Position numbers and translations under genes: made by a program
Notes under the pieces: model-generated
Told to the model about the DNA's origin: nothing
Databases searched by the model: none
The model's input: only the letters and a program-made list of their open reading frames with translations
In this document: positions 4,971-37,069 of the stretch, piece after piece
Layout: each line of letters begins with the position of its first letter
Position numbering within the stretch: position 1 is the stretch's first letter
Assembly: GCA_017409905.1 (NCBI GenBank)
Contig: JAFQRV010000032.1
Location: forward strand, 1-46,050
DNA length: 46,050 bases
Source of the DNA: Bacilli bacterium
Lineage (GTDB): Bacteria; Bacillota_I; Bacilli_A; ML615J-28; CAG-313
Direction: 5' to 3'

Positions 4971-5672
4971 ATGGAAAATAAACCAAAAGTTATACTTGCT
5001 ATTGGTGGTCATATCGGTGATGCTGAACTTACTGCTGGTGGTGTTATGGCAACAAATGCTGTATTAGGTGGTAAGAATTATACACTTGCTCTTACTGCTG
5101 GTGAACGTGGTAATCCCGCTCATTTAACAGTAGAAGAATATCGTAAACAAAAAATTGAAGAAGCTGAAGCATTTGCTGAAATGATGAATGGTAAAGCTTA
5201 TGTATTAAGATATCAAGATGGTGAACTTCCAAATAATGAAGAAGTTAGATATGAAGTAGCTAATATTATTAGAGAAGTAAGACCTGATTTAATTATTACA
5301 CATTGGCATTCTACAATGCATAAAGATCACAATGCAACACACTACATTGTTCCAGATGCACAATTTTTAGCAAGTGTTGTTGAATGTGATAAGATTCAAG
5401 GAAAACGTCACTATGCTCCAATTTATTTTGCGGAAAACTGGGAAGACGATTTAGATTTTGAACCATATGTTTATATAGATATTACTCCTGGATATGATTT
5501 ATGGTGTGAAGCATTACATAAACATTGGTTTGTTATGAATAGTAAAGATTTTAAATATTACGATTATTATACATCACTTGCAAGAGTACGTGGTTGTCTA
5601 AATAGAACTATGTATGCTGAAGCATTTAATATATATGATCGTCAAAAGATTGTGAGAAGAAAATTATGGTAA
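4971..5672 (+). CDS. PIG-L (LmbE) family zinc deacetylase
   Basis: Zinc-dependent deacetylase of the PIG-L family, whose members remove acetyl from N-acetylglucosamine conjugates. The zinc motif GGHIGDAE gives H14 and D17, matching the family AHPDDE, and H117-K-D-H120 (HKDHNAT) is the second metal motif. There is no signal peptide, so it is cytoplasmic. At 233 residues it has the normal length. The gene begins 2 bases after the GNAT stop, with AAGGAG upstream. NagB is encoded in this window but NagA is not, so this protein could supply the missing GlcNAc or GlcNAc-6-phosphate deacetylation; some archaeal PIG-L proteins deacetylate chito-oligosaccharides. That role is inference only. Confidence 0.88.
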   Translation: MENKPKVILAIGGHIGDAELTAGGVMATNAVLGGKNYTLALTAGERGNPAHLTVEEYRKQKIEEAEAFAEMMNGKAYVLRYQDGELPNNEEVRYEVANIIREVRPDLIITHWHSTMHKDHNATHYIVPDAQFLASVVECDKIQGKRHYAPIYFAENWEDDLDFEPYVYIDITPGYDLWCEALHKHWFVMNSKDFKYYDYYTSLARVRGCLNRTMYAEAFNIYDRQKIVRRKLW

Positions 5673-8002
5673 AAAGAATAATCAAATATTTTGTAGTATT
5701 AGTAGTATTAGCAACATCTTGTGTATTTACTATTAGTTCTGCAGCAGAAGAAAAAGAATATGAAAATGTTGTTTTATCAGGTAAAACAATAACTTATAAT
5801 TATACTGGTGGACCTGTTCAAATACCAGTAAAATTTGTAGCTGATCAATCAGAAATGCGTGGTGCATGGGTAGCTACTGTTTGGAATAATGATATGCCAA
5901 AACAAAATGGTACATCAGCTGAAGCTATTGAAGAATATAAAAAAGCATATCTTGCGGTATTAGATACTTTAGAAAAGTATAATATGAATACAATATTCTT
6001 CCAAATTAGACCTTGTAATGATGCTTTCTATGAATCTGAATATAATGATTGGAGTAAGTTCTTAGCTGGTCAAGGTGTTAATCCTGGTTGGGATCCACTT
6101 GAATGGATGGTAGAAGTTACTCATGAAAGAGATATGTATTTCCAATGTTGGATGAATGCATTTAGAGTTACTGAAGGTGAATTATTAAGCAAAGATGCAA
6201 TTTATTATACTGATGAATAATTAATTGAAACTAAAGCAAAAGCAATTGCAAATTTAGCTTCAAACAATTTTGCTAAAAAACATCCTGAATATGTTTTAAT
6301 GGGTGATTATGATTCTAAACTTATTTTAAATCCTGCCGAACTTGAAGTTCAACAACATATCTTAAATACTATTGAAGAAATCATTACTAAGTATGATGTT
6401 GATGGATGTCATTTTGATGATTATTTCTATTTAAGTTCAAGAAGTGCTGATGGAATTGACCCACAAAAATCTAATTTAAGTTTTGCTGGTGGAACAAGTT
6501 ATAAAGAAAACTTAACTGGTGTTAATGTTATGAATGACTTAGGTACATATATGGATTATCAAAATGATCCAGAAAAATATGATTTACCTGCTGATTTAAC
6601 ACTAGGTGATTTTAGAAGAAAAAGTTTAAACAACTTAATGAAAAAAATTCGTGAGTTAGTTGATGAAGTAAATGAAGAATTAGATAAAGAAGTTGAATTT
6701 GGTTCAAAACCAGCAGCTGTATGGCAATCAAATAGTGCATATTGTCACGATGCCCCAAATACTGCTGTAGGTGGATCTAATACTCACTGTGGTGCATATA
6801 ATTCAAATCATGAATTATTCGCTGATACTAAATATTGGGTAGAAGCTGGTTATGTAGATTGGATTGCTCCACAAGTATATTATGGATTTGGTAGCAACGA
6901 AGTTCCTTATGCTGATATCGTTAAGTGGTGGGCAAATATTGTTACTAAATTAAATGAAACTAGACGCGCTAGTGGTCAAAAAGATGTTAAGATGTATGTT
7001 GCACATGGTATTTACAAATATCATGGTGGAAGTGACAAAGAATATACTGATCCAAAAGAAATGATTTCACAATTAAAATACAATAAGAATTTTGAATGTA
7101 TTAAAGGTAGTGCAATTTATGCTTATAGTGATTTAGTTGTTTTCCAAAATGATACTCATAAGCAAGGTGTTGGTAATCTATTCTACAACTTATGGAATAA
7201 TAGTCCTGCATTACCACTTCCTAAAAAGAATGTTGATTATAGTGATTTAGAACTTGGTAAAATCACAATTCGTGAGACTAGTGATGAACGTTACTTAGAA
7301 TTAAGTTTTGATGCCGTAGAACATGCTAGTATGTATCAAATTTATCGTTTACCAAAAGGTACTGAATTTAATCTAAATGACAACCAATATCGTGTAGCTA
7401 TTGTAAAAGGTTATGATGCAGATGTTATTAGAACTGAAATTAGATATGCAAGTAATTTTGATTACTATATTCAAGCTGTTTCTGATAATTATTATGCAAG
7501 TAGTAAATATACTAAATTAAACTTTGATACTATTGATTATAATAAAGCCCCTAATCCAGTTGTTATTGAATTAAGTTCAACTAATTTAACAGTAGATGAT
7601 ATGCTATATATTACAGTTCCATATGCAACTGATGAAGAAGGTGATGAACTAACATATGAATTTAGTTTATCATTTAAAGGAATGGATGGACCATTTACAT
7701 ATAAACTACAAAATATTCAATACAATGAAGATAATATTACAGCCGAATATAAGAGCTTTGGTGTTGCAACCGATGAATGTGTAATTAAGTTAGAAATCTC
7801 AGACGGATTAGATACTACAGTTGTATACAGTGATTTTATTACTTATACAAAAGATGCTACAACAAATCCTCCAGTGGGTGATAAACCTGATCCAGATACT
7901 CCTCCAACATCTTCAATGAACTGTAATTTTGGTACATATGTAGGTATGGCATTAGTTCCTGCAATGTTAGCATTATTCATTCTTAAGAAAAGACAAAGAT
8001 AG
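5666..8002 (+). pseudogene. GHL10 (DUF187, DigH/YngK-type) surface glycosidase, interrupted by an in-frame stop
   Basis: First of three GHL10 paralogues. The frame is open from 5666 to 8002 except for one TAA at 6218-6220 (codon 185); without it the product would be 778 residues. The signal peptide is at about 1-28 (ends FTISSAAEE). The catalytic barrel follows (QIRPCNDAFYES, DGCHFDDYFY, FGSKPAAVW), then Ig-like domains and a C-terminal anchor (SSMNCNFG, hydrophobic helix, KKRQR). E. coli DigH of this family cleaves peptide-free peptidoglycan strands. Several blocks shared by the two sister copies are altered: HAW(L/M)NPYR is QCWMNAFR from residue 160, and FGISP is FGSKP. Decay, or a sequencing error in a divergent paralogue, would both explain this. 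The ATG at 5666 overlaps the upstream stop and has only a weak ribosome-binding site. Confidence 0.8.
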
Positions 8003-8955: not shown

Positions 8956-11064
8956 ATGAATAAATTTATTAAAGTACTAACTACTATCGTTATTACACTT
9001 TTGTTAACAGTAGTAGTTTTTGTCCCAAAATCTGAAGCCGCAATTTCAGGAGAAAATGTATCTGAATTAAGAGGTGTTTGGGTTTCAACTGTTTCGAATA
9101 TTGATATTACAACACAAAAAGGTACAGGAGAAAAAGCAATTAAAGATTATCAAAATGTTTTACTTACAATTTTAGATAAAGTTGAAAGCACAGGATTAAA
9201 TGCTATTTTCTTCCAAATTAGACCTGCAAATGATGCATTATATGAATCAAAATATAATGTTTGGAGTGAATTTTTAGCTGGTTATGGTGTTAACCCTGGA
9301 TGGGATATGTTAAGTTGGTTTATCGAAAAAGCACATGAAAGAGGAATTGAATTACATGCTTGGCTAAATCCTTATCGTGTTACTGCTTCAAGCGTAACAA
9401 GTGGAAAGACAGCAGAAGAAATTGAACAAATCAAATTAGATTTAAGAGCTAAAACTTTAAATGTTGCGCCTAATATTGATAACCCACTAACAATTATGGA
9501 TGACGAAGAATTCCTTGGTACAGTAGTTAATGGTGCTGAAGGAAAATTAATTTTAAATCCAGCCAGAGAAAAAACAATTTCTCATATTGAAAAAACAATT
9601 TCAGAAATTATTGAAAATTATGATGTAGATGGAATTCATTTTGATGACTATTTCTATCCTAGTGGTGGTATTGAATCAAAATATGATACTGAAGACTATA
9701 ATGCATACGTAAGTGGCGGAGGAACTTTAGGCAAAGCAGATTGGCGTAGAAGTAACGTTGATAAAATGGTTGAAAGAGTGCATAATTTAATTGATGCATA
9801 CAATGTAAAAAATCCATCAAAAGCTGTTGCATTCGGTATATCTCCTGCTGCTGTTTGGGCTGCTGACAGTACTAGATGTCCAGACCGTGGTCAACCTGGT
9901 GGTATGAATGTTATTTGTGGTAGTTATAGTGCATATACAGATTTATATGCTGATACAAAAAAATGGGTTGAAGAAGAATGGTTAGATTATATTCTTCCAC
10001 AAGTTTATTATAATTATGGTGATGACTATAAAGAAATTGTAAATTGGTGGGCAAAGGTTGTTTCTAAGACTAATGTTAAGTTATATGTTGGTACAGCAAT
10101 CTATAGAGCTCCTGAATGGCAAGATGGATTGGTAGTACAAAAACAATTTGATTATTTAAATTCAACTGAATTTTTGAAAAGATATGTATCAGGATTCGTG
10201 CTATTCTCTTATAGAAATTTGGTTAGTTCAGATCAATATTTAGTGATTGCGAATAACAGTTTAAAGAATTACTGTTTAAGAGGTGCATTACATCCTACTT
10301 ATGGATTTAATGATGCCAAGGTAACTGAAAAAGTTGATGTTGAAATATATAAAACAACTACAGATTATATAATTAAATTTAATGAAGTTAAAAATGCAAA
10401 TGGATATGTAATTTATGGTGTTCCTAAAGGTACTACAGAAATTAATTTTGCAGATCCGAGCATTCCAATTAAACAAGCTTTTAACCAAACAAATAGTGGA
10501 AAAAGCAATATCATTACTGTTACTCAAAAGAGTGTGGCAAACTTTGATTTTGTTTTAAGAATATATGATTTAGATAATAATCCACATGATTATGTAATTA
10601 TTAAGTTTGATAATGCATCAGAAAATGAAGGACCAACATTTAGTCATAACATTGATACTGAAAAAGTATATAATGTTGGTGAAAACATTGTAATGTTAAT
10701 TGAAGTTGATAGCCCTGCTGAATTGCCGGTTTCTGCTCAATTACATGTATCTGTAAATGGTGGAAATTTCATGACAAACTATAATTTAGAAGATAATGGT
10801 GATGGTACATATAGCTATAAATATACAACAATTAAAGATGGTACTGTAACATTCAAGTTTATTATTAATGATGGCGATGTTGAAAAAGAAATTATTGTAG
10901 GCCCAATAACAGTTGGCAAAGGTTTAAATAACGATGGTGGTGATGGTAAAACTGATACCGATACTCCTCCAACATCTTCTATGAACTGTAATTTTGGTAC
11001 TTTAATGATTTTACCAATGATTGCTGCTTGCGGCATATTTATTTTAAGAAAGAGAGAATTCTAG
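8956..11064 (+). CDS. GHL10 (DUF187, DigH/YngK-type) surface-anchored glycosidase
   Basis: Second and intact GHL10 paralogue, 702 residues. The signal peptide is at about 1-30 (ends KSEAAIS). The TIM-barrel domain follows with RGVWVSTVSN, QIRPANDALYES, HAWLNPYR from H134, DGIHFDDYFYP from D225 and FGISPAAVW. Then come two beta-rich Ig-like regions and a C-terminal anchor (SSMNCNFG, hydrophobic helix, RKREF). By analogy with E. coli DigH, it probably cleaves glycan strands of peptidoglycan outside the cell; other exopolysaccharides cannot be excluded. It starts 1 base after the dipeptidase stop. A 41-base stretch at its 3' end is almost identical to the corresponding part of the first copy. 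Confidence 0.9.
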   Translation: MNKFIKVLTTIVITLLLTVVVFVPKSEAAISGENVSELRGVWVSTVSNIDITTQKGTGEKAIKDYQNVLLTILDKVESTGLNAIFFQIRPANDALYESKYNVWSEFLAGYGVNPGWDMLSWFIEKAHERGIELHAWLNPYRVTASSVTSGKTAEEIEQIKLDLRAKTLNVAPNIDNPLTIMDDEEFLGTVVNGAEGKLILNPAREKTISHIEKTISEIIENYDVDGIHFDDYFYPSGGIESKYDTEDYNAYVSGGGTLGKADWRRSNVDKMVERVHNLIDAYNVKNPSKAVAFGISPAAVWAADSTRCPDRGQPGGMNVICGSYSAYTDLYADTKKWVEEEWLDYILPQVYYNYGDDYKEIVNWWAKVVSKTNVKLYVGTAIYRAPEWQDGLVVQKQFDYLNSTEFLKRYVSGFVLFSYRNLVSSDQYLVIANNSLKNYCLRGALHPTYGFNDAKVTEKVDVEIYKTTTDYIIKFNEVKNANGYVIYGVPKGTTEINFADPSIPIKQAFNQTNSGKSNIITVTQKSVANFDFVLRIYDLDNNPHDYVIIKFDNASENEGPTFSHNIDTEKVYNVGENIVMLIEVDSPAELPVSAQLHVSVNGGNFMTNYNLEDNGDGTYSYKYTTIKDGTVTFKFIINDGDVEKEIIVGPITVGKGLNNDGGDGKTDTDTPPTSSMNCNFGTLMILPMIAACGIFILRKREF

Positions 11065-11066
11065 AA

Positions 11067-12362
11067 GTGAAATTACATAAATTTAATAGTAGAAATTTAG
11101 TTTACTACTATGGTAACAAAAAAGCTGTTGAGTTACCTGAATATAAATATAATGATGAAAGCATTCGTGGGGTTTGGGTATCAAATGTAGTTAACATTGA
11201 TACACCTATTATGGAAGATATTGAAAGTTATCAAGCATATTTAAAGAATATGGTAGAAGTAATTGCATCATATAATATGAATTTAATTATTTTCCAAGTA
11301 AGACCAGCAAATGATGCTTATTATAAATCTAATTTGAATCCTTGGAGTAGATTTATAACTGGAACAGAAGGCAAAGATCCTGGCTTTGATGTATTACAGT
11401 TTGTTATTGAAGAAGCTAAAAAATATAATATTGAAGTTCATGCATGGATGAATCCATATCGTGTATCTCAAGTTCCACTTGAAAAAATGGAAATGACTAA
11501 AGAAGAATACTTAGATACTTTAGCTCCTAATAACTACGCTAGACTTCATAAAGAAGACACTACTTTAGATGGAACAAATAAAGTAATATTAAAACCATCA
11601 AGTAAAAATGTTATTAAATTTGTAACTGATACTATCATGGAAGTTGTAGATAATTATGATGTAACTGGCGTTCATATTGATGATTATTTTTATCCATATT
11701 CAAAAGTTCCAAGGGAACTTGAAGAAGAAGATTATCAAGAAGCTTTAAAAGAAAATCCAGGTTTAGAATTTGATGATTGGCGAAGAAATAATGTTGATGA
11801 AATGATTGAGAGCATTCATCTTGCTATGAAAAAATCGCTTAGTAAATCTGGAAAGAAAGTTGAATTTGGTATTAGCCCTTTTGCAATCTATCGTACAAAT
11901 AAAGCTTTAAAAGAAACTGGTTGGGAAAAAGGTTCATTCCATTCTGCTGGTGTTACAGAATGCTATGCTGATTTGTATTCAGACATTTATAAGTGGATGG
12001 AGAAAGGTTGGATTGATTATGTAGTTCCTCAACTTTATTTCCCATTTGAAAGAAAAGATGTTAACTATCACGATCTTGCAAAATGGTGGAGTGAGCGTTG
12101 TTTAGAAACGAAAACTAAACTATATGCTGGACAAGCTATTTATCAATTAGGTGCTAACCAAGTATGGGCCAACCCTTTAGAAATTGATAACCAATTAAGA
12201 TTTAATCAATTATATCCAAATATATTAGGTACTATCTTCTTTACTTATCACGATTTAGTACCTGGTCGTAATGCTGTAAAAGATGCTGGAATTGCTCTTT
12301 TAAAAGCTCGTTGGAATAGTAAAAAAATTGAAGAAAAAATGGCTGAAAGCCTTAAAAAATAA
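11067..12362 (+). CDS. GHL10 (DUF187) glycosidase without signal peptide, likely cytoplasmic
   Basis: Third GHL10 paralogue, 431 residues from the GTG at 11067. The barrel motifs are intact: RGVWVSNVVN, QVRPANDAYYKS, HAWMNPYR from H125, GVHIDDYFYPY with D205-D206, and FGISPFAIY. It has neither the signal peptide nor the Ig-like domains and C-terminal anchor of the other copies, so it should act in the cytoplasm on imported glycan fragments. A longer in-frame TTG start at 11028 would overlap the upstream gene by 37 bases and adds no membrane segment; GTG 2 bases after the upstream stop is preferred, although the ribosome-binding site is weak. It is the last gene of its operon, with a terminator directly after it. 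Confidence 0.85.
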   Translation: MKLHKFNSRNLVYYYGNKKAVELPEYKYNDESIRGVWVSNVVNIDTPIMEDIESYQAYLKNMVEVIASYNMNLIIFQVRPANDAYYKSNLNPWSRFITGTEGKDPGFDVLQFVIEEAKKYNIEVHAWMNPYRVSQVPLEKMEMTKEEYLDTLAPNNYARLHKEDTTLDGTNKVILKPSSKNVIKFVTDTIMEVVDNYDVTGVHIDDYFYPYSKVPRELEEEDYQEALKENPGLEFDDWRRNNVDEMIESIHLAMKKSLSKSGKKVEFGISPFAIYRTNKALKETGWEKGSFHSAGVTECYADLYSDIYKWMEKGWIDYVVPQLYFPFERKDVNYHDLAKWWSERCLETKTKLYAGQAIYQLGANQVWANPLEIDNQLRFNQLYPNILGTIFFTYHDLVPGRNAVKDAGIALLKARWNSKKIEEKMAESLKK

Positions 12363-28629: not shown

Positions 28630-29340
28630 ATGAAAAGTAAAATATTCAATAGTAAAGCATATCAAGTATTTGATTATATATGTCGATTAATTATTTTGAA
28701 TATTCTGCTTATCGGATGTTCATTCTCGATTTTTTTAATCGTAACAAGTATATTCAAAGACTTGAAAGAAATTTATCAATTATTATTATTTATACCTAGT
28801 GCTTTAACTTTATTCCCTTCAATTATGAGTGTATTTGGAGTAATTAAAGGTTATGAATTAGATGGCACAACAGGTGTTTTCAAAGAATATTTTAGATGTT
28901 TTAAAAAGTATTATTTAAAATCATTGTTATTTAGCATTATGTTAATTTTATATATAATTTTAATAAGTAATAGTTATTCATATTTTAATAATATGAAGAC
29001 AAATGGAGTTGGTTACTTAATTGGTTATTTGTTAACAATATCATTTGTTTTAATATCAATTTTCTGTTTTGTACATTTGCCATTAACAATTATTTATTTT
29101 GATGATCTTAATCTTAAACATTATATTAAACTATCATTTATATTTGCATTTAAAGATTTAGGATTAACAATTATTTTAACAATACTTTCGATAATTTCTA
29201 TAATTCTTTCTTATTATTTTAATTTGTATTTATTGATATTATCTTTTAGTTTAACGATATTTCTAATTGTCAAACTAACTAAAAGTAAGTACATAAAAAT
29301 TTATGAAAGGAACAAAGATAATGAAAAAAACAATGACTAA
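28630..29340 (+). CDS. YesL-like (DUF624) membrane protein
   Basis: 236 residues with about six predicted membrane helices and the YesL-type opening (FDYICRLIILNILLIGCSFS, FPSIMSVFGVIKGYE). YesL proteins commonly accompany carbohydrate ABC importers in Bacillota; their function is unknown. The ATG at 28630 is preferred over 28624 because GAGGA (28620-28624) is then correctly spaced. It overlaps the NagPA-type gene. A second YesL-like protein is encoded at 39798, next to NamZ. Confidence 0.8.
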   Translation: MKSKIFNSKAYQVFDYICRLIILNILLIGCSFSIFLIVTSIFKDLKEIYQLLLFIPSALTLFPSIMSVFGVIKGYELDGTTGVFKEYFRCFKKYYLKSLLFSIMLILYIILISNSYSYFNNMKTNGVGYLIGYLLTISFVLISIFCFVHLPLTIIYFDDLNLKHYIKLSFIFAFKDLGLTIILTILSIISIILSYYFNLYLLILSFSLTIFLIVKLTKSKYIKIYERNKDNEKNND

Positions 29341-31279
29341 AAGACTAGTTTCTTTTACATTAATTTTAATGTTTGCATTCGTATCATTTATTAAAGTAGA
29401 AGCTGCTGAAAAAACTACTAGTATTACTAAAAATGTAACTATGGTTGGGGATGCTGTTACAGGATCTTTATGGAACGGCGTTAATTATGAGAGAATGCAT
29501 GTTAAATCTGAAAGATTAGGTAGTATTATATCAACTGAAGTTGGATTAGTTTATAGTTGGGATGCAGTATCTGTTATTGCTGATAGTAATCCTGCAATTA
29601 AGGTTGCTTCTTGGGGTATAACTAATAATGTTAAACAAGGTTATAAACAAGGAACAACTACTCAAATTGCTGAAGATTATGAATTAACTCACCCAGGATA
29701 TACTGTTTTAGCTGCAATTAATGGCGACTTCTTTGCAAATGCATCATATACTACATCAAGTGGTGTTAATATGCAACCATCTTTTGAACCAATTAATACT
29801 TGGGTTGCAGATGGAGGCATTACATTTAAAAAATCAGTTGTTGAACATTGTCATCACAATGTAATAGGTATTAGAAATGATAGAAGTTATACTTATCATA
29901 TTGGTTCAGCATACGATCATTTAGGAAATCCAGTTGATTGGCTAATGCCAGAAAATGAATACTATACTGATTTAAAAGGTAATTTAATTACAACTCGTTC
30001 TGTTGAAGGTTATGGACAAAATATTCCTGAATTTACTGATACTTTAATTGCAACTATTGGTGGAGTTAAAATGGAAGCCCATATTGGTGCAAATGGATTC
30101 AGTGAAACAGGTGTGAATATTTTATTACCAGGAACATATGATTTGGATGCAACAGGATATTCTATTTATAAATTTAATATTGACCGTTATTCTAAACCTA
30201 ATGATGGTTTCCAAGGAAAAACTTGGTATGGTCATTCTATTACAGGACATTCATATAATTTAGATTATACAGGTATGTATTTAACAGGTAGAAATATGTC
30301 TACTATTACAGATCCTCATATTACTACAGTTGAAAATTGTTTCTATGTTGTTACTAAAGAAGATGCTATTAAAGATAAAATTGCATTTAAAGAAACTATG
30401 ACTTGTCAATATGAATTAACAGGTGACGTATGGGGTGATGTAAACTCTACAATGGGTACAGTTATTCCATTCTTTGTAAATGGTAAGAGAACACAATATG
30501 TATCTAAATCAGATAACTATCTAAATGATGGTAAGCCTAAAAGTGTAATTGCCTTTACAAAAGATAATGATGCAGTATTCTTCTTTATGGGTCCAGGTCC
30601 ATTAAGTGGAGCTAAAGAAAAAGGCCCATCTGGAATTGAAATGGCTGAATTATTAGAAAGATTAAATGTAGTTGATGCGTTCTGCTTGGATGGTGGAGGA
30701 AGTGCTACAATAGTAGTTAAAAATGAAAATGGTAAATTTGTGGAATTAAATTCTCCTACTGATGCTGGTGGAACAAGATCAATCGGTAATGCATTATTAA
30801 TGATTATTGAAGATTCTAATTTAGAATTAAAAGAAGCTAAAACAACAAAAGCTACTTTCCACCAATCTGCTCCAATGGCTGATTCAACATTATTAACTGC
30901 GAAACTTCATATGAATAATAAAACATATGAGTTAAAAGATGGCGAAGTAAGTGTTGAAGATTTAAAGGCTAATACTGAATATGAATACTATTTCTCATAT
31001 ACATATGAAAATGCAGGTGTTGAATATTCAACTCAAACAAATGTTATGACATTTACTACACCGTTAACAGATGATGTAGATCCAGATCCAAATCCAGATG
31101 TAGACCCTGATCCAAATCCTGATGTAGATCCAGATCCAAATCCAGATGATGGAAAAGAAGATGATAAGACTGATACAGGCAATGGTACTACAGGTAGTTG
31201 TGCTATGCCATTTACAGCAGTTGCTTCATTTATAATGGCAGCTAGTTTAATGTTTATCATTATTAATAAGAAGAGATAA
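29321..31279 (+). CDS. Surface NagPA-type phosphodiester glycosidase
   Basis: 652 residues. The signal peptide is at about 1-29 (ends IKVEAAEK). A phosphodiester glycosidase (NagPA) domain follows with AAINGDFFANA, FFMGPGPLSGA and the diagnostic CLDGGGSATIVV (D457 onward), then GTRSIGNALLM. The mammalian founder of the family removes GlcNAc from GlcNAc-1-phosphodiester-mannose. Here a sugar-phosphodiester in wall glycopolymers or lipid-linked glycans is plausible. After a short Ig-like domain come three DPDPNPDV repeats and a C-terminal signal (GSCAMPF, hydrophobic helix, KKR). The ATG at 29321 is chosen over 29303 because AAAGGA lies 9 bases before it. It overlaps the YesL-like gene. Confidence 0.85.
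   Translation: MKKTMTKRLVSFTLILMFAFVSFIKVEAAEKTTSITKNVTMVGDAVTGSLWNGVNYERMHVKSERLGSIISTEVGLVYSWDAVSVIADSNPAIKVASWGITNNVKQGYKQGTTTQIAEDYELTHPGYTVLAAINGDFFANASYTTSSGVNMQPSFEPINTWVADGGITFKKSVVEHCHHNVIGIRNDRSYTYHIGSAYDHLGNPVDWLMPENEYYTDLKGNLITTRSVEGYGQNIPEFTDTLIATIGGVKMEAHIGANGFSETGVNILLPGTYDLDATGYSIYKFNIDRYSKPNDGFQGKTWYGHSITGHSYNLDYTGMYLTGRNMSTITDPHITTVENCFYVVTKEDAIKDKIAFKETMTCQYELTGDVWGDVNSTMGTVIPFFVNGKRTQYVSKSDNYLNDGKPKSVIAFTKDNDAVFFFMGPGPLSGAKEKGPSGIEMAELLERLNVVDAFCLDGGGSATIVVKNENGKFVELNSPTDAGGTRSIGNALLMIIEDSNLELKEAKTTKATFHQSAPMADSTLLTAKLHMNNKTYELKDGEVSVEDLKANTEYEYYFSYTYENAGVEYSTQTNVMTFTTPLTDDVDPDPNPDVDPDPNPDVDPDPNPDDGKEDDKTDTGNGTTGSCAMPFTAVASFIMAASLMFIIINKKR
31076..31147 (+). repeat. Three tandem 24-base coding repeats
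   Basis: Three copies of a 24-base unit encode (V)DPDPNPD. They form an acidic, proline-rich spacer between the catalytic part and the C-terminal anchor of the NagPA-type protein. Copies differ at a few third positions, so the repeat is maintained at protein level or is not brand new. Confidence 0.9.
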
Positions 31280-33760: not shown

Positions 33761-36700
33761 ATGAAAAAAGTTTTTGCTTGCTTAAGTGCTTTAGTACTTA
33801 TGTTAGTTACTTTTGGACTTTTAGTACAACCTGCTCATATCTTAGCTGCAGAAGTTGAAGATGGCAAGTTTATTGAAGATCCAACATTAGAGGAAGGTGA
33901 AATGCCACTTTATGTAATGAATAGTATTCGTTCATCTTTCCCACATTTATATGATGACAACGCTCAACCAGATCCAAATTATGGTATAAGTCGTGATTTT
34001 TATTGGAATGAAATTAAATTAATTTTCCCTGAATTTGGTGATGCTGGCGCAACAGGCAATTTCTGGTCTGTATACACTCAAGGTGACTACCAAGAAACTA
34101 TAGGAACTGCTGCTGCTGGTAAAGTTTACCTATGGATTGAAAATGAATTTGGAGAAATCGTTCCTGCTACATCTACAAGAGGTAGTATTGTTTGGAGAGA
34201 TGTAAAGGATGAAAGTAATCCTAATGCTCCATATAATCAATATGCTCCATTATTTGGTGATACATCATTATCAGGTGTTCGTTACAACGTAAGTGGTAAA
34301 CCTGTTGTAATGGATAACTACCAATTATATAATGGTATCATTAATGGTAAAGGTAGTTCTTATCAAACTGACCCATTCTTCATTATCGTTGATGGTAATG
34401 GTAAAGTAGTTCGTGGTCATGCTCATGATAACTATTTCGCTGCTGAAAACATTGAAACTTATGGATTTACTCCAATCTTCGGTTACAAAGATGGTGTTAT
34501 CGTATTAAGAAGTGACGTTGTTGGTGGTGAAGCTCTTCACGGTTTAAGTGCTAGTGATGCTGAATTAGATAGAGAACAAATCGCTGTTCCAGATATGGAT
34601 AGCCCAGTTCTTGATGATTTCGGTGAACCAGTATTAGGTGCAGATGGTCAACCTACTTATAACAATAAATATATTGATGGTGAAAATCCAAGTCTTTCAG
34701 TTGGAACTCGTTATATCTTCCAATGGTTCTCAGAAGAAGAATTCGCAAATGAAAAAGTTAACACTGTTGCTTATATGCAAGAAGGTTGGTTAGCTGATCG
34801 TTGGGATTATGCTTATGCTGATCCAAATGGTGGTTATGTATGTTTATCATTCACAGCTGCTTTAGGTAAATATAATGAAGTTACTGCTGACCAAGCTAGA
34901 ATTCATAACGCTTCTGTAAGAGCTTTAAAAGAAGCTGGTGAAATTTCTGAAGAAGAAGAAGCTGCTTTATTAATCAAAGAAACTATTACTACAGATGAAA
35001 CTACTGGTGCTGAAGTTGTTACTTATGCAACATATAGAAGACCTGAAACATTATCAGTTACTATCCCTGTAAATGGTATTATGTATCGTTATGGTTTCTT
35101 AGATTATTCTGGTGCTGCTGTTACTGAAATGCACTTTAATAAATTCTGTCATTTATTTGAAGATGCTTTAATTTATGGTCGTCATGCTGATTATCAAGCT
35201 TATGCTCGTACTTATAACTTCTCTGCAACTGGTTTAGTTGCTAAAAATGCAGTTTATGAAAATGAATCATTCTACGTTAGAGAAGAAAACGGAGAATACA
35301 TTTTCGAAGTTAAACAAGGTAGCAACATTAAAGTTAGTGAAGTAATTGACATCTTAGGTATGTTAGGTGGTTATGAAATTTACGGTAAACCTGCTAAAGA
35401 AGCTGGTTCTAACGTTCCTGCTGTTATTTCTTACAAACTATCAGATGTTGCTGGTTTAGAATATACAATGGATATCGATGGAAAACCAACAATGCGTCCA
35501 ATTCAATATTTATACAATGATTATAAAGAAGCTATTGAAGCTTTCATGCCTGTATTAGCTGCTCACGTTGGTGCTGATGCTAACCATGAAAATTGGTCTA
35601 ATAATACTTATGGTAAATTCACAGAAGAAAATCTTGCTTCATTCTGGGAAATTCATACTGAATGGTCATGGTTTAAAGATTATTATCAAGCTGTATTTGA
35701 TGAATTAGTAGCTGCTCAAGGCTATGACAAAGGTTATGCAGCATGGAGTCCAAATATGGCTCGTTTCGGTTTAGAATGCTTCTACACAGAAACTCATAGA
35801 ACTTCTTGGCCTGCAACTCCTGACTTCTCTAAAGGTTGGTCAGTTAAATTTGAAGATTACTGTCCTGAAAAAGCTTATAGATATAACACTTGGGAAGATT
35901 TCACAGCTGATTTCATTAAAGATTATAATGAATATGTATATGGTAAAGAACAAATTACTGACGTTCTTTCTTACTGGGATTTATCTTACACAACTGATAC
36001 AGCATTACAAGCAAAAGTTTGTGAATTCTTTAATACTGAAAAATGGGCTTGGTTCGGTAAAGAATTAGATACTGGTATTCAAGCTGCTGGTTGGACAAGC
36101 TATGCTAAGGATCATTACTACTATTATAGATGTAATGTTTGGGAATACATCACTAAGACTCAAAGAACTTCATGGCCTGCTTCTTGTGGTTCATTCCACA
36201 ATATGGCTGATCCACTTTGGATTGGTGTTCCACTAGAAAAAGATTATAACAAGATTATTTATAGTACTGAAGGTTATAACTTATTCGATACATTCGAATT
36301 AACATTAGACGTAGTTAACAATACAACAACTATTTCTGATAGTATTGCTGTTAAATTCCAAATCGTTGAACACTTCACACCTGTTATCAGAGTTGATGAA
36401 GAAGCATTAAAAGTTGAAGTTGGTCAAAAATCTATCAACTTATATGAAGCTGTTAAGGCTTGGGATATGGAATACAAAGAAAGCGGTAATGGTGTTTACG
36501 GAAGTAACATTTCTAGACAATATTTAGAATTCGTATATCCTGAAGGATTCGATCCAAATAACTTAAAAGGTGGTAATTGGACAATCGAAGCTGTTGCTAA
36601 ATGTCCTTATGAAACTGGTATTGAAGCTAGAACTTCATTCCAAATCGTTGTTATCGATAACGTTGCTCCAACTTTACGTTTAACTTCAACTGATTATTAT

Positions 36701-37069
36701 GTAGCTCAAGGTTCTGAATTAAATCCAGTAGATTTAATCGCTTTTGCTCATGATGACGTTCATGGTGACTTATTAAGATCAGCAGAAGTTAACTGGATTT
36801 GGTATACAGTTGATTTCGGTGGATATGATCCTGAATATTCTACAGTTGGCGAACAATTTAACTGCACATTATCAGTTTATGATGATGCTGGTAATAGTGC
36901 TTCTGCTGACTTCACATTAACAGTTACTGGTATGGATGTTGAAGTATCTGGCGGTACTGATGTTCCACCAACAGAAGAAAAAGAAGAAAGCTGTATTTCA
37001 TTTGCTTATGTTTCAAGCTTTATCGCTGCTGCTGGTTTAGCATTATTAATCTTAAAAAAGAGACATTAA
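33761..37069 (+). CDS. 1102-residue surface protein of unknown function with internal repeat
   Basis: No family recognised. The signal peptide is at about 1-30 (ends AHILAAEV). The middle is rich in Trp, Tyr and Phe and contains an imperfect duplication of about 122 residues: TEWSWF near 633 and RTSWPA at 680 recur as TEKWAWF near 759 and RTSWPA at 802. Residues about 880-1065 are two Ig-like or cadherin-like domains (VVIDNVAPTLRLTST, VYDDAGNSASADFTLTV). The end is the shared C-terminal signal (EESCISFAY, hydrophobic helix, KKRH). It stands directly after the nagB terminator behind its own promoter with two cre-like sites, so it is probably abundant and repressed when preferred sugars are present. 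Glycan binding or adhesion to a substrate surface is a guess. Confidence 0.85.
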   Translation: MKKVFACLSALVLMLVTFGLLVQPAHILAAEVEDGKFIEDPTLEEGEMPLYVMNSIRSSFPHLYDDNAQPDPNYGISRDFYWNEIKLIFPEFGDAGATGNFWSVYTQGDYQETIGTAAAGKVYLWIENEFGEIVPATSTRGSIVWRDVKDESNPNAPYNQYAPLFGDTSLSGVRYNVSGKPVVMDNYQLYNGIINGKGSSYQTDPFFIIVDGNGKVVRGHAHDNYFAAENIETYGFTPIFGYKDGVIVLRSDVVGGEALHGLSASDAELDREQIAVPDMDSPVLDDFGEPVLGADGQPTYNNKYIDGENPSLSVGTRYIFQWFSEEEFANEKVNTVAYMQEGWLADRWDYAYADPNGGYVCLSFTAALGKYNEVTADQARIHNASVRALKEAGEISEEEEAALLIKETITTDETTGAEVVTYATYRRPETLSVTIPVNGIMYRYGFLDYSGAAVTEMHFNKFCHLFEDALIYGRHADYQAYARTYNFSATGLVAKNAVYENESFYVREENGEYIFEVKQGSNIKVSEVIDILGMLGGYEIYGKPAKEAGSNVPAVISYKLSDVAGLEYTMDIDGKPTMRPIQYLYNDYKEAIEAFMPVLAAHVGADANHENWSNNTYGKFTEENLASFWEIHTEWSWFKDYYQAVFDELVAAQGYDKGYAAWSPNMARFGLECFYTETHRTSWPATPDFSKGWSVKFEDYCPEKAYRYNTWEDFTADFIKDYNEYVYGKEQITDVLSYWDLSYTTDTALQAKVCEFFNTEKWAWFGKELDTGIQAAGWTSYAKDHYYYYRCNVWEYITKTQRTSWPASCGSFHNMADPLWIGVPLEKDYNKIIYSTEGYNLFDTFELTLDVVNNTTTISDSIAVKFQIVEHFTPVIRVDEEALKVEVGQKSINLYEAVKAWDMEYKESGNGVYGSNISRQYLEFVYPEGFDPNNLKGGNWTIEAVAKCPYETGIEARTSFQIVVIDNVAPTLRLTSTDYYVAQGSELNPVDLIAFAHDDVHGDLLRSAEVNWIWYTVDFGGYDPEYSTVGEQFNCTLSVYDDAGNSASADFTLTVTGMDVEVSGGTDVPPTEEKEESCISFAYVSSFIAAAGLALLILKKRH

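Follow-up and report, generated by a model that had tools for sequence, protein, structure and literature searches.

A cysteine-containing C-terminal tail on surface proteins of Bacilli resembles the MYXO-CTERM sorting signal, with a CPBP protease as the candidate reader

Four proteins encoded in a 46,050-nucleotide stretch of the genome of a Bacilli bacterium (hereafter the window; contig 29 of an assembly of 1.37 Mb with an estimated completeness of 71%) share a C-terminal tail that consists of a Gly, Asn or Ser residue followed by a cysteine, approximately 18-20 hydrophobic residues and, finally, Lys/Arg. That this tail is a shared functional signal appears almost certain; the best reading is that it is a Cys-type, MYXO-CTERM-like sorting signal which is used where Clostridia have LPXTG and for which a CAAX-type membrane protease is the probable reader. 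The system looks like a Bacilli relative of the MYXO-CTERM tag, with both the tail and the protease below the curated cut-offs.

Four tailed surface proteins in the window

The first-pass annotation of the window had reported four proteins that end with a shared cysteine, a membrane helix and a basic cluster and that lack LPXTG. Direct reading of the translations bears this out: all four tails are present, none includes LPXTG, and the cysteine codon is TGT in each. The tail of GHL10 surface enzyme a is SMNCNFGTYVGMALVPAMLALFILKKRQR, with the portion from the cysteine onward, CNFGTYVGMALVPAMLALFILKKRQR, encoded at 7922..8002 on the plus strand (Cys codon 7922-7924) and matching the tail profile, which itself includes this tail, with an E-value of 9.4e-23. 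The gene (5666..8002, plus strand), for which 5666 is the true start, encodes an N-terminal signal peptide and is interrupted by a single in-frame TAA (6218-6220), with PF02638 matched on both sides of the stop. The 790-aa copy in the sister species is uninterrupted, and a tblastn search with this protein crosses the TAA in one frame; the stop is either a nonsense mutation or an assembly error, and which of the two cannot be told.

The other three tails were identified both with the tail profile and by direct reading. GHL10 surface enzyme b (702 aa; 8956..11064, plus strand; PF02638, E 4.2e-55) ends in SMNCNFGTLMILPMIAACGIFILRKREF, with the Cys tail CNFGTLMILPMIAACGIFILRKREF at 10987..11064 on the plus strand (Cys codon 10987-10989); the closest solved structure is that of Cwp19 (5oq2), a peptidoglycan hydrolase of C. 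difficile. The NAGPA (phosphodiester glycosidase) family surface protein (658 aa; 29303..31279, plus strand; PF09992, E 6.5e-19) ends in TGSCAMPFTAVASFIMAASLMFIIINKKR, with the Cys tail CAMPFTAVASFIMAASLMFIIINKKR at 31199..31279 on the plus strand (Cys codon 31199-31201). The 1102-aa surface protein (33761..37069, plus strand) ends in EESCISFAYVSSFIAAAGLALLILKKRH, with the Cys tail CISFAYVSSFIAAAGLALLILKKRH at 36992..37069 on the plus strand (Cys codon 36992-36994). No Pfam domain scores over the cut-off in this protein, and neither a profile search of solved structures nor a search of the genome contigs with the protein as the query produced a match; it has an ortholog in the sister species, with 59% identity over the last 531 residues.

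A third GHL10 ORF in the window, which is untagged (11028-12362, plus strand), has a listed start that falls, out of frame, inside the tail codons of GHL10 b. The ORF probably begins downstream of 11028; the same overlapping layout is found in the sister species (L195:7018).

Recurrence and conservation of the tail

A profile of the four window tails, combined with the reading of all ORFs, identified three further tailed proteins in the same genome (1277, 711 and 650 aa, on contigs C6, C36 and C30, respectively), so that the total rises to seven and the concern that no more such proteins would exist in the genome falls away. The cysteine lies 25-26 residues from the C-terminus in all seven proteins, the ectodomains of which include three GHL10 (PF02638) and three NAGPA (PF09992) domains and one without a known domain. 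The signal peptides of the tagged proteins are of the ordinary type, and the tagged proteins are separate from the 40 to 45 or so plausible lipobox lipoproteins of this genome (52 raw regex matches, some plainly false). No tagged protein passes the screen for a lipobox cysteine at the end of the signal peptide, bar a loose match on the ORF starting at 5666, where TSC lies inside the signal peptide, which continues to SSAAEE.

Among the non-polytopic proteins of the genome, 11 finish with a helix that has a basic end; seven of these have a cysteine at position -25 or -26, and the remaining four lack such a cysteine. The binomial probability of this outcome is about 2e-9 (proteome Cys frequency of 1.24%, two positions), an indicative value only, given that the positions were picked after viewing the data and paralogy was ignored. 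Stronger support than this figure comes from the comparison with the sister species: the tail cysteine is kept in 7 of 7 pairs of orthologs vs 15 of the 37 other cysteines, with 55% identity outside the tail and 5 to 13 of the approximately 27 spacer residues just before the cysteine retained. In the NAGPA pair, the tail cysteine was matched by eye; the script left it unpaired because the two proteins differ by two residues in the Cys-to-end length.

In the sample of the order to which this bacterium belongs (43 genomes from two families), we read 40 distinct Cys tails from both families, all with the MYXO-CTERM layout of an invariant cysteine, a helix and a basic cluster. The usual form is GCxxG, with a glycine before the cysteine in 28 of the 40 tails and at position +3 in 24; the Cys-to-end length is 24-29 in 39 tails, and 32 in the remaining one, which contains two cysteines. 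The invariance of the cysteine among these tails is partly the result of selection because Cys tails served as the input for the profiles, an effect to which the comparison of orthologs is less exposed. The tail profile yields nine matches in the sister species, and a 20-row profile, at E<=0.003, matches 22 of 40 genomes of the order vs 3 of 355 genomes from the rest of the class; no Cys tails outside the order were seen among the profile matches elsewhere in the class.

The order-wide recurrence, rigid geometry and conserved cysteine uphold the likeness to MYXO-CTERM that the first-pass annotation had perceived. The attachment of the tail to unrelated ectodomains (GHL10, NAGPA and unknown) likewise supports the sorting-signal reading, as does its position where homologous enzymes have LPXTG.

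Different anchors on homologous GHL10 proteins

Searches with an alignment of GHL10 proteins as the query retrieved homologs with Cys tails from an uncultured Bacilli bacterium (Lapin-020), Candidatus Izemoplasma GMC6 and Tenericutes M17C-02. Three tails were found in Lapin-020 and two in Candidatus Izemoplasma GMC6; one tail among them lacks a glycine before the cysteine. By eye, the Lapin-020 locus and the window share a run of gene types, namely, a serine hydrolase, a dipeptidase-like protein, tagged GHL10, untagged GHL10, a hexosaminidase-like protein and a large lipoprotein or binding protein. The GHL10 homologs from Caloramator and Clostridium carry LPXTG (LPKTG-type) tails in the same place as the Cys tail, and those from Acholeplasma and relatives end in a plain helix without the cysteine. 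Thus, the anchoring device on one type of enzyme differs from host to host.

Comparison with known C-terminal sorting signals

Work on Cys-type C-terminal signals and their CPBP proteases is recent, and Myxococcus is the only case in the literature consulted for which cleavage has been demonstrated. The tails described here resemble MYXO-CTERM in having a short conserved-Cys motif, often after glycine, a single helix and a basic end, in being located on signal-peptide-bearing surface proteins, including hydrolases, and in the presence of a CPBP protease. They differ in that the end is Arg-rich in MYXO-CTERM and consists of Lys/Arg here, and in the hosts, which are the diderm Myxococcota, with type II secretion as the last step, in one case and Bacilli, for which such a step would not be expected, in the other. 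The cut-offs of the MYXO-CTERM models TIGR03901 and TIGR03382 are not reached: 4 of 20 tail members match, with the best E-values of 0.033-0.039, and tail member 1 scores 13.4 of 20 bits and 13.5 of 15.85 bits. The initial statement that no mechanism had been described is too strong for Cys tails in general because, in Myxococcus, cleavage in such a CPBP system has been demonstrated, with the Cys-dependent processing of the MYXO-CTERM protein TraA by MrtX, and lipidation of the cysteine has been proposed (PMC11980579). As for Bacilli, no description of this Cys-tail system was found in the literature searched, which did not extend to the main in silico study of Cys-type signals.

Synerg-CTERM with MrtS (TIGR04564, NF040589) and JDVT-CTERM with MrtJ (NF033191, NF033192) are also Cys-type tails paired with CPBP proteases according to the NCBIfam descriptions, the latter pairing being reported in the literature as well (PMC11980579). 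The best tail E-value for Synerg-CTERM is 7.5e-5, below the curated cut-off, and, more generally, none of the Cys-tail models of NCBIfam release 20 reaches its cut-off among the matches listed. The same holds for the proteases: the CPBP proteins of the order score at best 47.7 of 75 bits with MrtJ and 36.3 of 130 bits with MrtS, and the main CPBP orthologs are also below the curated MroQ cut-off. Given that both tail and protease fall below the curated cut-offs despite the shared anatomy, we set this system apart from MYXO-, JDVT- and Synerg-CTERM.

The tripartite layout is shared with the LPXTG signals as well, and 4 of 20 tail members score with the LPXTG_anchor model (best E 6.9e-7), a result presumably due to the helix and the basic end, yet none of the Cys tails contains LPXTG. 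The tripartite signals GlyGly-CTERM, processed by rhombosortase, and PEP-CTERM, processed by exosortase, have different motifs. N-terminal lipoproteins, which depend on Lgt and LspA, similarly place a cysteine, the residue that is likely modified, at the outer membrane border; in the tailed proteins, however, the cysteine is C-terminal, the order of helix and protein is inverted, and the signal peptides are ordinary ones.

Candidate processing enzymes

Sortases, rhomboid proteases and exosortases were each found above the cut-off in 0 of the 43 genomes of the order; in the control genomes, sortase was detected in 3 of 14, rhomboid protease in 14 of 14 and exosortase in a single genome, so the sensitivity of the exosortase search is less well controlled. 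With no match above the cut-off, these three types of enzymes are rejected as readers of the tail. A cell wall is likely in this bacterium given the presence in the genome of a MurG-type glycosyltransferase, FtsW, FtsZ and, by eye, a MurB-like ORF, and thus, the missing sortase is not due to a missing wall.

In contrast to the sortase-, rhomboid- and exosortase-like genes originally suggested, a CPBP (CAAX/Rce1-like) protease remains as a good candidate, with matches in 42 of the 43 genomes (over the cut-off in 40). CPBP proteases are glutamic intramembrane proteases, the class that also includes myxosortase. The main CPBP orthologs, examples of which are L176:2489-3370 and L183:1330-2142, contain the catalytic-type residues of this class (EE, R, H, H/N). 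In the alignment of 15 of these orthologs, E190, E191, R195, H224, H277 and N281 are invariant, as is the N of an S-x-N-Q motif; a profile search of solved structures with the CPBP alignment gave no match. The sister species has the main CPBP (PF02517, E 9.6e-18), whereas in this genome only a weak paralog was found. One tail-encoding genome (G038) has no CPBP or Lgt match; both this assembly and that of the window are incomplete. The presence of CPBP is weak evidence for tail processing because such proteases are widespread among bacteria, with 11 or 12 of the 14 control genomes encoding one; furthermore, approximately 18 genomes of the order have CPBP without a tail at the threshold, no co-loss of CPBP with the tails was observed, and no link between tail and CPBP genes was seen in the gene neighborhoods that were read.

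Lgt is encoded in 41 of the 43 genomes and LspA in 36. Two forms of Lgt, one canonical (GRWGNFFNQE-type) and the other divergent, with a GR(I/V/L)GCFxxGCC motif, coexist in most genomes of the order. A representative of the divergent form with the cysteine motif is L104:99-998, with orthologs in L229-L248. In the genus g20 and in genome G016, the divergent form is the sole Lgt found and is accompanied by LspA, so that this enzyme probably serves ordinary lipoproteins, and its assignment as a dedicated tail acyltransferase is not supported. Across the genomes, tail presence does not cleanly track with the divergent Lgt. A tail acyltransferase has been predicted by the authors of the myxosortase study, although the enzyme itself was not found (PMC11980579). 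In one locus (L031:7441-9198, minus strand), the canonical Lgt is fused in one frame to a PpaX-like HAD-type phosphatase; in other genomes of the order, the two are separate neighbors.

Proposed route to the cell surface and alternative explanations

Under the scheme that we infer for the topology, cleavage, protease and lipidation of the tailed proteins, export would proceed via the ordinary signal peptide, and the helix of approximately 20 residues, with its K/R end, would act as a membrane stop that leaves the (G/S/N)-Cys at the outer border. The CPBP (Rce1-like) glutamic intramembrane protease would then probably cut next to the cysteine, possibly after lipidation of this residue, and the mature protein would be kept at the surface, probably via a lipid on the tail cysteine. 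Cleavage by CPBP and retention by lipid are proposed by analogy to MrtX-TraA and MYXO-CTERM (PMC11980579). We give processing of the tail by CPBP an even chance, and lipidation of the tail cysteine appears somewhat doubtful. A specific version, in which Lgt, perhaps the paralog with the Cys motif, would lipidate the tail cysteine and CPBP would remove the helix, amounting to a C-terminal lipoprotein pathway, is a tentative and, on balance, rather unlikely one; if it is true, a lipid at the C-terminus, and not a link to the wall, would hold the surface glycan enzymes on the cell.

The tail could also be a permanent anchor, that is, an uncleaved stop-transfer helix with a cysteine kept for another purpose, such as acylation in place. 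A plain helix can evidently anchor such proteins, as the Cys-less GHL10 proteins of Acholeplasma and relatives imply, and other proteins of the same genome have C-terminal helices without the cysteine. Nevertheless, the fixed Cys-to-end length, the GCxxG context and the retention of the cysteine in all seven pairs of orthologs fit processed signals better. Moreover, almost no residues follow the K/R cluster, as in processed sorting signals, whereas the ends of the other C-terminal-helix proteins of the genome are variable; permanent anchoring is thus possible and yet somewhat unlikely in our estimation. Under another, improbable, explanation, the signal is processed by something other than CPBP: a protease or transpeptidase that has escaped recognition, or a pathway similar to Lgt/LspA that works in reverse topology. 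The unspecific presence of CPBP and the second, divergent Lgt (GCFxxGCC) in most genomes of the order are compatible with such an enzyme, as is the fact that the MYXO-CTERM acyltransferase was predicted but not found (PMC11980579); conversely, the occurrence of the divergent Lgt as the only one, together with LspA, in g20 and G016 makes an ordinary lipoprotein role probable, and it is a CPBP protease that serves the one Cys-type system already studied (PMC11980579).

The proposition that the tails resemble each other through common descent or chance, with a cysteine that has no role, is extremely improbable. Admittedly, the three GHL10 proteins are paralogous, as are the three NAGPA proteins, and the alignment of GHL10 a with GHL10 b extends through the tails. 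However, at least three unrelated ectodomains are tailed in one genome, the tail recurs across the order, and the cysteine is retained where the adjoining spacer has diverged; the recurrence in 40 tails and the conservation of the cysteine among orthologs (7/7) argue strongly against chance or paralogy alone, which we reject.

Significance and genomic context of the tagged enzymes

If the sorting-signal reading is correct, the Bacilli version would show how walled bacteria that lack sortase display surface enzymes and would bring a Cys-type system into cells that are expected to have a single membrane, and the tailed proteins would constitute a large natural set of substrates for finding the enzyme that modifies the cysteine. 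Given that the tag is carried by glycan hydrolases, the genes for which lie next to those for sugar transporters, it may decide which of these bacteria retain such enzymes on the cell.

The neighborhood in the window includes GH20 and NamZ as well as, by eye from the translations, NagZ-, NagB-, AnmK- and MurQ-like genes and ABC permeases. Glycan-use genes, including one for a DUF5696 protein, form a long collinear series over 12452-45519 on the plus strand; this series probably serves amino-sugar or muropeptide use. In the second family of the order (f2), the Cys tail is found on large proteins that, by eye, resemble starch- or pullulan-type enzymes (L192:5400-7862 and L193:3837-6308) and that are encoded next to lipoprotein and transporter genes.
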